Assembly: GCA_020850355.1 (NCBI GenBank)
Contig: JADZEX010000016.1
Location: 1-64,000 of the forward strand
DNA length: 64,000 bases
Source of the DNA: Fimbriimonadaceae bacterium
Lineage (GTDB): Bacteria > Armatimonadota > UBA10988
Reading direction: 5' to 3'
Under the pieces are notes generated by a model, which saw only the letters and a program-made list of their open reading frames with translations, made no database searches and had not been told where the DNA came from. The translations under genes and the position numbers were made by a program. Numbering within the stretch: position 1 is the stretch's first letter; every line of letters begins with the position of its first letter. Below are positions 40,553-48,160 of this stretch, one piece after another.

Positions 40553-40582
40553 CCAGAAAAAGGGTCCTGACCCCTTTAGGGG
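40553..40582. repeat. Solo REP-like half element
   Basis: The stretch contains GGTCCTGACCCCTTT (40563-40577), identical to the right arm of the palindromes at 46989-47260, and is preceded by AAAAAGGG so that a small hairpin AAAGGG/CCCTTT with a seven-base loop can form. It sits between the DUF1257 and DUF2997 genes. Confidence 0.7.
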
Positions 40583-44949: not shown

Positions 44950-46989
44950 ATGCGCTGGATGCTACTGGGACTGCTGGGGGTCAGCAGCCTGTCACTGGCG
45001 GCGCCGACCGCTCCCGTGAAGTTGCTGCTGGTCACCAAGACTGCCGGGTTCCGGCACGGCTCGTGCGATGTCGCGAAGATTGAGGTGCCGGCGCTCGGCC
45101 AGCGCAGCGGCCTGTTCGAGGCCAAGGTCACCGAAGACGTGGCGGACTTGGAGCCGGACTCGCTGAACCAGTACCAGGTGGTGCTCTTCTTCACCACCGG
45201 CGAGCTGCCAATGAGCGACGCCGCCAAAGCCAATCTGCTGGCCTGGGTGAAGCGCGGCGGTGGCTTCCTGGGGATGCACAGCTCGACCGACACCTTCTAC
45301 CGCTGGCCCGAGTACGGCGAGCTGGTCGGCGGCTACTTCGACGGGCACCCTTGGAATCAGGTCGTCAATGTCAAGATCGACGACCCGCAGCACCCGGCGG
45401 TCGAACACCTCGGCGCCGAGTTCCAGATCCTGGAAGAGGTCTACCAGTACCGCAACTGGTCGCGTGACAAGGTCCACGTGCTGATGACGCTTGACAACGC
45501 CAGCGTCGACGTCAACGCTGCGGGCGTCAAGCGGGCCGACAAGGACTTCGGGATCACCTGGTGCAAGGACGACGAGGGCGCCGGCCGGGTGTTCGTCAGC
45601 GGGCTGGGCCACCACGACGGCGCCTGGCGCGACCCGCGGGTCCACCAGATGCTGCTCGGCGCCGTGAAGTGGCTGACCAAGTCCGATTGGCGCAGCGACC
45701 CCGCCTTGCAGGCCCTGGTCAAGGCCGCCGATGTCGACGGCCTGGTCGCCGCGGTCGGCGCCAGCCGCGCGGCCTGGCAGGACGAGCCTGTGAAGGCCCT
45801 CGGCAGCCTGGGCACGCCGGCTGCCGCGGCCAAGTTGGCGCAGCTCGGCCAGGCCGGCCGGCCGCTCAACGTTCGCCTCGCCGCGATTGCGGCGCTCGCC
45901 AGGCCCGCCGGCGGTGATCCCGCGCCGCTGCTGGTGTTGGCTGGCGATCCCGACCCGTTGGTGCGTGCCGCGGTCTGCACCGCACTCGGCCAGCAGCGCG
46001 CCGCGGCCGCTGAACCGGCGCTGGTCAAGGCTACCCAAGACGCCGTCGCCGAGGTTCGCCTGGCGGCCGTCCAGGCCCTCGGCAAGCTGGCCACGCCAGG
46101 CGCCAAGACGGCCCTGCTCGCGGCCTTGCGGGCGCCCGACGAGAACCAGCGCCGCGCCGCCCTGAGCGCCCTCACGGCGACCGACCCGGCGACGCGCGGC
46201 GCCCTGCTGGAGTTGCTGCGCACCACGCCCCAGACACTCGGCGACAGCGGCGCGGCAATGGTCGACAAACTGGCCGCCCAGGCGGGCGAAACCGCCGTCT
46301 ACGAGGTGCTGGCCGGCTTGCTGGGCAGCGCCGCCAGCGGCGCCACCAAGCAGGCGGCGCTGCGCGCCGTGGCGCGGTCGGGCCGACCCGAGGCGGGCGA
46401 GTTGCTGACCAGGGCGCTGTTCGCCACCGACGACAACCTCCGGCGCGCCGCCATCGCCGCGCTGACCGGCGTCGAGTTGGGCACCCTGGGCGGCAAACTG
46501 ACGCCGCACGTCAGGGCCTGGAAGGTGATCGGTCCGTTCGCCAACCCGAACGGCCAGGACGCCCACGACACCGCCTACGGCCCGGAGACCAGCACCGACC
46601 CGACGGCGGAGTTCGATGGCGCCAAAGGCAAGGTGACCTGGAAAGACGCCGACGCCCCGAACGGTCGCCTCAACCTGCGCCAGGCCATCGCCAACGGCGA
46701 CAACTTCGCCGGCTACGCTGCCTGCACCATCGTGGCCCCCGCCGCGCTGACCTGCGAACTCCGGATTGGCAGCGACGACGGCGCCAAGGCCTGGCTGAAC
46801 GGCCAACTGATCTACAACCGCAAGGCCTTCCGCGGCCTGGTGGTCGACGACGAGCGGGTCACCATCAACCTCCAGCCCGGCCCCAACCGCCTGCTGGTCA
46901 AAGTCCTCCAAGGCGCCGGCGACTGGCTCCTCACCGCCCGCCTGGCCCGCGCCGAAGGCGGCTTGGAGGGCCTCAAGCTAGAGCGCTGA
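44950..46989 (+). CDS. Exported ThuA-like protein with HEAT repeats
   Basis: A 679-residue secreted protein. After the signal peptide (MRWMLLGLLGVSSLSLAAP) a ThuA-like glutamine-amidotransferase fold occupies about residues 22-245 (LLLVTKTAGFRHGSCDVAKI, GGGFLGMHSSTDTFYRWPEY, GAGRVFVSGLGHHDGAWRDP). HEAT-like helical repeats follow (about 260-520; LVRAAVCTALGQQRAAAAEP), then a beta-sandwich (WKVIGPFANPNGQDAHD, LRIGSDDGAKAWLNGQLIY). ThuA proteins take part in trehalose and other disaccharide use through 3-keto intermediates. The preceding DUF1080 gene supports the same pathway. The gene ends exactly where the REP-like palindrome cluster begins. Confidence 0.87.
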   Translation: MRWMLLGLLGVSSLSLAAPTAPVKLLLVTKTAGFRHGSCDVAKIEVPALGQRSGLFEAKVTEDVADLEPDSLNQYQVVLFFTTGELPMSDAAKANLLAWVKRGGGFLGMHSSTDTFYRWPEYGELVGGYFDGHPWNQVVNVKIDDPQHPAVEHLGAEFQILEEVYQYRNWSRDKVHVLMTLDNASVDVNAAGVKRADKDFGITWCKDDEGAGRVFVSGLGHHDGAWRDPRVHQMLLGAVKWLTKSDWRSDPALQALVKAADVDGLVAAVGASRAAWQDEPVKALGSLGTPAAAAKLAQLGQAGRPLNVRLAAIAALARPAGGDPAPLLVLAGDPDPLVRAAVCTALGQQRAAAAEPALVKATQDAVAEVRLAAVQALGKLATPGAKTALLAALRAPDENQRRAALSALTATDPATRGALLELLRTTPQTLGDSGAAMVDKLAAQAGETAVYEVLAGLLGSAASGATKQAALRAVARSGRPEAGELLTRALFATDDNLRRAAIAALTGVELGTLGGKLTPHVRAWKVIGPFANPNGQDAHDTAYGPETSTDPTAEFDGAKGKVTWKDADAPNGRLNLRQAIANGDNFAGYAACTIVAPAALTCELRIGSDDGAKAWLNGQLIYNRKAFRGLVVDDERVTINLQPGPNRLLVKVLQGAGDWLLTARLARAEGGLEGLKLER

Positions 46990-47054
46990 GGCACAGAAAG
47001 GGGTCAGGACCATTTATGGTACCCCATAAATGGTCCTGACCCCTTTCTGTGCCT
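46989..47054. repeat. REP-like perfect palindrome, copy 1
   Basis: A 31-bp perfect stem (46989-47019 paired with 47024-47054) with a four-base loop TACC. The arms read AGGCACAGAAAGGGGTCAGG then ACCATTTATGG and the reverse. It begins at the ThuA gene stop, lies between convergent genes and could also end transcription from both sides. Confidence 0.93.
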
Positions 47055-47088
47055 GCGGGTGGTTCAGCAGGACAGCACGCGCTCGCGA

Positions 47089-47144
47089 ATCAAAGGGGTC
47101 AGGACCATTTAAGGTACTCCATAAATGGTCCTGACCCCTTTGAT
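47089..47144. repeat. REP-like palindrome, copy 2
   Basis: A 26-bp stem with one mismatch (47089-47114 paired with 47119-47144) and a TACT loop. It shares the core AAAGGGGTCAGGACCATTT with copy 1, but the outer flanks differ, so the outer stem of copy 1 is flank-specific. This suggests separate insertion events of a common core. Confidence 0.9.
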
Positions 47145-47212
47145 GACGCTTCGCGCCAGCATCCATCCAGGCCAACGGCGCCCCCGCCAGCCGCGGGTGT
47201 TACTTCCACTCG

Positions 47213-47260
47213 GGTCAAGAGGGGTTATGGTACCCCATAAATGGTCCTGACCCCTTTGGC
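47213..47260. repeat. REP-like palindrome, copy 3, left arm deleted
   Basis: The right arm CCATAAATGGTCCTGACCCC with the terminal TTTGG is intact, but the left arm reads AGAGGGGTTATGG, lacking about ten bases (CAGGACCATT) of the core. It is a decayed copy just before the end of the sugar isomerase gene. Confidence 0.85.
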
Positions 47261-47269
47261 GGCTGCGGT

Positions 47270-48160
47270 TCAGGCGGGGAGGACGTGCTCGTGCATCCAG
47301 GTGATGTACTGCCGGGCGCAGCGGTCGACGTTGGCGAGGTTGCCGCCGCCGCGGAGTGGGGAGCAGGCTTCGTAGCTGGCGACGCCGTCGAATCCGCCGT
47401 CGGTGAGACCGGCGAAGAACTCGGCGTAGGGGATGTCGCCGCTGCCGAACGGCACGGCCCGCACCAACGGCGCGCCCGCCGGTTCGTAGTTGACCAGGTC
47501 CGGGCGGTAGCGCCAGCGGGGCAGCCGCACATAGTCGGCGTTGGTGGTGATCAGCGTGTGCGGCGCCGCCAGGTAAGCGGCGTGGTAGACGTCTTCGCCG
47601 CGCAGAAAAGGCGACCAGGCGTCGAACCCGAGCTTGGCGTTCGGACGGTCGATGTCGGCCAGCAGCTCCAGCAGCACTGCGGTCTGCACGCCCAGGTCGT
47701 GGTGGTTCTGAATCGCCAGGCTGAGGCCGTAGGCCGCGGCCCGGTCGGCGCACTCGCGCAGGCCGACCACGGTGCGGTCCCAGACTGCGGTCAGCCCGCC
47801 GGCGGCCGGCTCGTAGGCGGTGAAGACCCGCACTACTTTGGCGCCCACCTTCGCTCCGCACCGCGCCAGGGCCTCAACGTAGCCGATCTGGAGTTCCAGC
47901 CAGGGCACCTCGCCGGCGTTGCCGCCGACGAAGTCGGTGTAGGCTGCCACCACGGGACAGGTCACGCCGTGCTGCGCCAGCGCTGCCTGCATCGCCGGCA
48001 CCTCCGCCGCGGCGTCCAGCGGTGAGCCGTGCGGGCGCTTGCCCATCAGCATCACGGCGTCGTAGCCCAACTCGGCGGCCTTGGCGATGCACTCGGCGGT
48101 GCTCAGGCGCGCCTGCCCCCAGAAGCCGGCGTAGCTGACGGTGAACAGACTCAGTTGCAT
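47270..48160 (-). CDS. Sugar phosphate isomerase/epimerase family protein
   Basis: A 296-residue cytoplasmic TIM barrel of the AP-endonuclease-2/xylose-isomerase-like family. Typical strands are AAELGYDAVMLMGKRPHG, VVRVFTAYEPAAGGLTAV, GLSLAIQNHHDLGVQTAVLL and NAKLGFDAWSPFLRGEDVYH, with metal-ligand type residues in the QNHHD and GFDAW segments and the last Glu in DGVASYEACSPL. The likely role is isomerising or epimerising a sugar or keto-sugar. It follows the glycosidase gene at 48170-50215 on the same strand by ten bases and is preceded by GGAG at a good distance. Its 3' end faces the REP-like cluster. Confidence 0.9.
   Translation of the reverse strand: MQLSLFTVSYAGFWGQARLSTAECIAKAAELGYDAVMLMGKRPHGSPLDAAAEVPAMQAALAQHGVTCPVVAAYTDFVGGNAGEVPWLELQIGYVEALARCGAKVGAKVVRVFTAYEPAAGGLTAVWDRTVVGLRECADRAAAYGLSLAIQNHHDLGVQTAVLLELLADIDRPNAKLGFDAWSPFLRGEDVYHAAYLAAPHTLITTNADYVRLPRWRYRPDLVNYEPAGAPLVRAVPFGSGDIPYAEFFAGLTDGGFDGVASYEACSPLRGGGNLANVDRCARQYITWMHEHVLPA

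Follow-up and report, generated by a model that had tools for sequence, protein, structure and literature searches.

Short inverted repeats that accompany Y1 transposases have been described under several names. TIRtron/TIRYT repeats, in which TIRYT stands for terminal inverted repeat (TIR)-associated tyrosine transposase, were reported by Di Nocera et al. (2013, PMC3733652). According to the accessible part of that article, the inverted repeats flank a Y1 transposase gene, are dispersed as singles, dimers and groups, and carry GGGGWSAS in some, not all, TIRs. REPINs (Bertels and Rainey, 2011, PMC3116915) are presented in the available text as two inverted repetitive extragenic palindromic (REP) sequences with a short spacer, which form a hairpin, are associated with a REP-associated tyrosine transposase (RAYT) and show compensatory changes in the spacer. 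Most TIRYTs are thought to belong to subclass 2.1 of TnpA-Y1, as stated in the available section of Quentin et al. (2018, PMC6006769). Here, a set of palindromes was analysed that lies between two convergent genes in a stretch of 64,000 nucleotides (the window) from a Fimbriimonadaceae bacterium (contig JADZEX010000016.1). These palindromes are probably REPIN-like dimers, in compact form, built from the arm found on both sides of a RAYT/TIRYT-type Y1 transposase gene of this genome, with outer flanks mirrored by fold-back copying.

Comparison with described repeat systems

The genome of the window (G000, 6.67 Mb) was compared with multi-contig draft genomes of relatives (G001, G002, G003, G004 and others). 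Counts were obtained from pattern matches and extracted sequence stretches, with L numbers for loci and C numbers for contigs. TIRtron/TIRYT repeats fit as the closest known kind. As described for them, the repeats studied here occur as dispersed singles, dimers and groups, and inverted repeats flank the Y1 transposase gene in G000 and G002, with upstream arms only in G001. The arms of G000 and G002 fit GGGGWSAS via GGGGTCAG, whereas the G001 arm GGTGTCAG does not, and GGTGTCAGG of G001 departs from GGGG. Site-specific mirrored flanks are not mentioned in the accessible part of the TIRtron article. The inverted doublet is shared with REPINs, and the compensatory spacer changes noted there are akin to the inner loops of G001; mirrored outer flanks are not described in the available REPIN text. 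The GTAG or GTGG at the hairpin foot of the REPINs of GTAG RAYTs was not found: by eye, the foot of the G000 arms (AAAGGGGTCAGGACC) lacks GTAG, and in G002 the tetranucleotide occurs in the arm's complement (AAAAGTAGCCTGACCCC), although at an internal position.

The transposases share with subclass 2.1, in so far as the available text defines it, the NHxH motif, Y...NP in two of the three proteins, a comparable length (222-228 residues versus a median of 238) and the TIR consensus GGGG[AT][CG]A[CG]; a WSS stretch was judged by eye to correspond to the tabled 'SS'. The forms listed there for subclass 2.1 and RAYT group 1 are NH[VYF]H for the HuH motif and YIELNP or Y[IV]HLNP for the Y motif. 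NHWH and YVERN[PA] fall outside of them; the motifs read NHWH and YVERNP in G000, NHWH and YVERNA in G001, and NHFH and YVERNP in G002. Moreover, subclass 2.1 genes are reported in that text without nearby REP-like sequences, whereas weakly hairpin-forming arms flank the genes here.

An unusual feature relative to known repeats is that the outer flanks, although they vary from site to site, are in many cases palindromic. The titles and abstracts retrieved by literature searches contained no report of mirrored outer flanks of REPs, a statement that holds for those searches only; no paper combining REPs with template switching was found in a literature search, and the core sequence searched as text returned only papers with seemingly unrelated titles. 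Template switching is described in the available part of PMC8604942 as homogenising the arms of inverted repeats and as able to change proteins. In contrast to such quasipalindromes, the switching proposed here would start from hairpins scattered over many sites and extend into the unique DNA beside them. If true, a small dispersed hairpin converts adjacent unique DNA to mirrored copies, lengthens its stem and can leave two different genes with one C-terminus. The repeats would then document, at many natural sites, how template switching acts over short distances in bacteria, and the mirrored flanks would be a signature to find TIRYT-type repeats that searches for the GTAG tag would miss.

Three palindromes as members of a dispersed family

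Three copies of a 50-bp palindrome are present at 46989-47260. A preliminary description of the window had placed three REP-like palindromes between convergent genes, and coordinates, open reading frames (ORFs) and arm complementarity confirmed it. The palindromes consist of inverted AAAGGGGTCAGGACC arms with a TACC or TACT loop, copies 1 and 2 being 50-bp inverted pairs of the arm AAAGGGGTCAGGACCATTTA around a 4-nt loop (TACC in copy 1, TACT in copy 2). Copy 1 starts on the final stop-codon base of the upstream gene (46989), and its 31-nt arms (46989-47019 and 47024-47054) are 100% complementary across the spacer TACC, in agreement with the perfect stem described initially. The single mismatch given for copy 2 was also recovered, with 26-nt arms (47089-47114 and 47119-47144) that are 96% complementary. 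Past the shared 50 bp, self-complementarity extends over 8 bp in copy 1 and 3 bp in copy 2, with sequences unlike each other; the predicted fold of copy 2 adds three pairs past a bulge, beyond the ATC/GAT flank.

Copy 3 (47208-47257) has kept its loop and right arm, and its left arm is damaged as initially described. The loss of about ten bases proposed for this arm is plausible, and substitutions explain the damage about equally well: a gapless alignment of 84% was returned by the repeat finder and a second alignment likewise favoured substitutions, and by eye a deletion of about ten bases between GGGG and TTATGGTACC fits the sequence to a similar degree. Decay of copy 3, as in the grade from perfect to decayed elements that had been read as turnover, is plausible; turnover itself was not observed. 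Predicted RNA folds reached -62.4 kcal/mol for copy 1 and -48.9 kcal/mol for copy 2 (z -13.1 each), and -24 kcal/mol (z -1.4) for copy 3.

The repeat is dispersed, as its REP-like label had implied. Six core matches with at most one mismatch were found in the window (five at the locus and one at 40563) versus 0.77 expected, and genome-wide the 20-mer core was detected at 61 sites with at most two mismatches and at none in the reversed control. A 14-mer core with at most one mismatch gave 91 sites (control 2), a total that takes in a second repeat family. The many copies in this genome, together with an exact 19-mer found in 0 of 60 relatives, speak against palindromes that are unique and vertically conserved. 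In G000 the copies occur singly, as inverted pairs and in clusters of at least three arms. The loops are rather uniform, with TAC present in most compact pairs, and given this uniformity the pairs may well be spreading as units. Among nine compact-pair loci of G000 with ORFs read, a probable gene 3' end adjoins the pair in seven (L026, L040, L047, L048, L057, L060, L061) and its position is ambiguous in the other two (L019, L063).

Pairing of arm and transposase

Two PF01797 genes were identified in G000. One of them encodes a Y1 transposase (C42:169096-169779) and has an arm at both ends, the stop codon lying within the 3' arm. Its product matches Y1_Tnp; the closest NCBIfam model is the REP-associated tyrosine transposase NF047646, with a score below the cutoff (69.1 versus 80 bits). 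The best relatives of the same family are encoded in G001 (58% identity) and G002 (49%). The G001 gene has arms AACGGTGTCAGGGACCGTTTTCG on the upstream side, and no arm was seen downstream of it; the G002 gene has the arm AAAAGGGGTCAGGCTACTTTTC on both sides. A joint arm pattern matched 68 times in G001 (all GGTGTCAGG types) and 32 times in G002 (all GGGGTCAGGCTAC types), with 0 matches in the reversed control, 0 in G003 and 0 in G004. Arm and transposase change together across the three genera. GTCAGG is common to the arms of G000, G001 and G002, and in DNA folds of single arms it is located in the hairpin loop in G000 and mostly so in the other two; these folds are weak (-4.3, -4.3 and -2.0 kcal/mol, respectively). 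Presumably, the Y1 transposase moves the arms as non-autonomous units.

The second PF01797 gene (L009:1-1090, contig C85) is of the IS200 type and lies amid several copies of a different, GCCCAGGGCGTTGCCCTGGGC-like palindrome.

Mirrored outer flanks

Each left outer flank was compared with the reverse complement of its own right flank, against right flanks shuffled among sites. The score was the number of contiguous matches outward from the core, and the arm ends (GAAA in G000, CAA in G001) were counted in both observed and shuffled values. The main set of G000 comprised 13 pairs that have no more than one core mismatch and whose gap does not exceed 25, with no hand-picking and without L040. 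These pairs gave 80 matched bases versus a shuffled mean of 39.0 (maximum 73), a value that none of 100,000 shuffles reached, and eight of the 13 match over 3-8 bp past AAAG. An additional pair in L040, whose right arm has two core mismatches, has a mirrored flank of 9 bp. Three pairs with longer gaps outside of the main set match over 1 (L024), 1 (L037) and 0 (L056) bases past the arm end. A hand-picked set (nine of 16 inverted pairs and the second pair of L040, omitting L014, L024, L037, L056, L057, L062 and L063) gave 49 versus 11.8 (2/200,000), a selected result that is superseded by the 13-pair test.

The effect is stronger in G001. There, 31 pairs (L150-L186), in which both arms carry GGTGTCAGG unaltered and lie within 45 bp, gave 355 versus 131.1 in shuffled sets (0/20,000), and scores of at least 8 were reached by 22 of the 31 own pairs versus 14 of 930 cross pairs. 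The mirrored length past the AAC of the arm ranges from none to 29 bp and is at least 10 bp in ten pairs; in L175 the mirrored flank reaches the contig end. The pair beside the G001 transposase gene (L126, outside of the 31-pair set) has 8 matched bases. Seven further loci of G001 have an arm without a qualifying pair; by eye, L178 shows a 6-bp mirrored flank round a single arm, and the partner arm is mutated in L182 and L184. Outer flanks that differ between sites yet are palindromic, as first described for copies 1 and 2, are beyond chance in both G000 and G001, two genera, with no such effect in G002.

A set of 20 pairs from 19 stretches of other phyla scored 79 versus 49.1 shuffled (0/50,000). 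It was rejected as a replication, the excess being by eye largely a matter of A-run length, which differs between genomes.

Origin of the mirrored flanks

Spacer-free perfect palindromes with a half-length of at least 10 were counted away from the arms; none was found among 115,721 positions of the G001 loci and one among 63,114 of the window. Set against ten of the 31 G001 flanks, the background of G001 suggests that the flanks were copied inverted across the hairpin. Such palindromes are too few as targets, and a preference for them could hardly supply 10 in 31. Insertion of the element at the centre of palindromes that were already present, such as terminator stems, is accordingly improbable. 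Mirrored flanks as short as 3-5 bp might be small palindromes; a half-length of at least 5 was seen at 261 of the 115,721 G001 background positions and at 180 of the 63,114 of the window. Of the ten long flanks, four (L152, L156, L165, L169) include partial arm heads.

Fold-back template switching, following rather than accompanying insertion, appears to account best for these observations. In replication or gap repair, a 50-nt hairpin in DNA would let the growing strand fold back, either onto itself or onto the opposite arm. The folded-back strand would copy the arm, continue into the neighbouring host DNA and rejoin the template at short homology. Each event would write an inverted copy of one flank on the other side, lengthen the stem and keep the arms alike. 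The preliminary description suggested an outer stem created at or by insertion, which is partly supported: the long flanks are best read as inverted copies, and these may equally have arisen after insertion.

Variation inside the pairs was also evaluated. The inner regions of G001 vary by site yet pair within the site (290 versus 138.3 shuffled, 0/20,000), and the 8 nt after the core are identical between the arms in 24 of 31 pairs (11.5 expected, 0/100,000); arm-to-arm copying explains both. Partial arm heads (..GGTGTCAG) are found just outside of the full arm in L152, L156, L164, L165, L169 and L176 of G001. Those of L152, L156, L165 and L169 recur in mirror image on the other side of the pair, which looks as though one arm had slipped and the change had then been copied onto the other.

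At L167 (contig C144 of G001) two convergent genes meet at a pair, whose two sides mirror each other over a stretch of 30 nt (counted with the arm end). Both proteins end with DVVVYRGR within the mirrored stretch, and the same DNA, extracted as L131, folds as one long stem (-70 kcal/mol). Neither protein matched Pfam, and their homologue searches match different loci. Several homologues, not all, have VxVY-like ends on either side. The homologues of the left protein end with GGDVALYGRV (G002), DVAVYAR (G004), DVLVYTLR (G015), SVDVWRREG (G003) and DCCWLEQRP (G000); those of the right protein end with CEFAQVEVYAR (G002), AVTVY (G005) and ARVFQAP (G040), and the right gene had no match in G003. 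The copying strand may have departed from the end of one gene and landed on that of the other at the VxVY-like similarity, with either side as the donor.

An unlikely but credible alternative is insertion of a single-stranded hairpin by the transposase, with the free 3' end of the hairpin priming synthesis on the flank during joining, which would give an inverted target duplication of variable length. The flank match begins right at the arm end and varies in length, as expected from such priming, and Y1 enzymes of the IS200 group act on single strands according to the available text of PMC6006769. By itself, however, this insertion leaves the site-varying palindromic inner loops and the symmetrical partial arms unexplained. 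In L167 the mirrored end stands where several homologues have a gene end of like pattern, suggesting an exit at homology, and the pattern is missing from G002 and from part of the G000 pairs. For the inner loops, partial arms and L167 ends, copying across a hairpin already in place is no worse an explanation. The wider proposal of a Y1 transposase family in which hairpin joining primes fold-back synthesis, with inverted target duplications of variable length as the normal mark of insertion that rewrites neighbouring gene ends, is similarly unlikely. The least probable reading is that of ordinary bidirectional terminators with palindromy kept by selection: a convergent setting and a loose scan, in which a terminator-like pattern matched copy 1 on both strands (three matches in 501 bases versus 0.3 in shuffles), would suit it, but the family is dispersed with a cognate transposase, the copy 1 tail (TTTCTGTGCC) has a T run of merely TTT, and G001 pairs also occur between apparently divergent ORFs (L150, L152), as well as between hslV and hslU. 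The pairs may nevertheless contribute to termination as a secondary function.

Several results weigh against fold-back copying of the flanks. Five of the 13 unselected G000 pairs (L014, L057, L061, L062, L063) match nothing past the AAAG arm end. With at most two mismatches and a gap of at most 25 (33 pairs), the excess weakens to 116 versus 64.4 (1455/100,000); 23 of these pairs belong to the second family, with conserved flanks and a gap of 14, and L014 and L061 fall out. A gap of at most 100 (35 pairs) gave 116 versus 63.2 (1246/100,000). The six pairs of G002 show no site-specific flanks (22 versus 20.5, 15,433/50,000), and G002 also has long perfect-stem pairs (L140, DNA fold -30.1 kcal/mol). 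Since its long stems lack such flanks, a hairpin by itself is insufficient; the absence in G002 reflects either a further requirement (age, host repair or enzyme) or a number of pairs that is too low. The arm agreement in G001 could come partly from subfamilies moving as whole pairs. No movement was seen, and single palindromes may be affected by assembly errors in multi-contig drafts.

A comparison of empty and filled sites, as suggested initially, was run on the relatives and yielded no clean pre-insertion allele via hslV, the two genes of the window or both L167 genes, which also counts against the proposed copying. In G001 a palindromic pair (L166:1689-1760, contig C135) lies between hslV and hslU, whose families were confirmed. 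In G003, G000 and G004 an HslU-like sequence begins within about ten codons past the hslV stop, and hslVU are adjacent in G003 and G000; the G001 spacer differs outside of the element too. The best homologues of the two genes of the window are on separate contigs in G001, and likewise in G002.

Features of the locus and other repeats

Table 1. Features at and around the three palindromes (window positions), and Rfam matches in loci of the same genome (locus positions).
Feature	Position	Strand	Remarks
ThuA domain and HEAT repeat protein gene	44950..46989	+	ORF; Pfam PF06283, PF13646
Copy 1, left outer flank AGGCACAG, reverse complement of 47047-47054	46989..46996		8 bp past AAAG
Copy 1, core, inverted arms AAAGGGGTCAGGACCATTTATGG, loop TACC at 47020-47023	46997..47046		Arms recur genome-wide
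Copy 1, right outer flank CTGTGCCT	47047..47054
Copy 2, left outer flank ATC	47089..47091		Pairs with 47142-47144
Copy 2, core, inverted arms	47092..47141		96% identical to copy 1; one stem mismatch
Copy 2, right outer flank GAT	47142..47144
Copy 3, damaged left arm and loop region	47208..47237		Ends TTATGGTACCCCA
Copy 3, intact right arm	47238..47257	-
Xylose-isomerase-like TIM barrel protein gene	47270..48160	-	ORF; Pfam PF01261; convergent with the ThuA gene
Further lone arm of the same family, AAAGGGGTCAGGACCCTTTT	40558..40577	-
RF01687 matches	L015:70-114, L028:1393-1437, L046:1177-1221, L064:1394-1438, L064:1713-1757

The second palindromic family of G000 comprises 23 copies in L015-L067 (e.g. 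L015, L016, L046, L062, L065, L066), typically GGGTCTGGACTGACGGTACTCCGACGGTCCTGACC, with long conserved flanks (CGGCGGCGAAAC... and ...GTTTTCGNNGCCACCAC) and several copies each on contigs C7, C95 and C109. Twenty loci, of which 18 hold this family, were searched for the Rfam Acido-Lenti-1 RNA (RF01687); five matches at or above the gathering score were obtained in four of them, and two weaker ones in L033 and L050. The Acido-Lenti-1 'RNA' may be tied to a mobile repeat. Another repeat occurs around GGAAAGGGGTCTGGACCAGGG, with ATCGGGTGCGGCC ahead of it, in L027, L044, L062 and L066, and its link to the arm core is weak. Finally, L026 of G000 and L172 of G001 apparently contain the same gene (C-termini ADKYVGLATCRLDDLLADLERCPA and ADKYVGLATCSLSELLDYLLACPA), weakly similar to beta-1,2-mannobiose phosphorylase, and a palindromic pair follows just 3' of it in both genera, with different arms.

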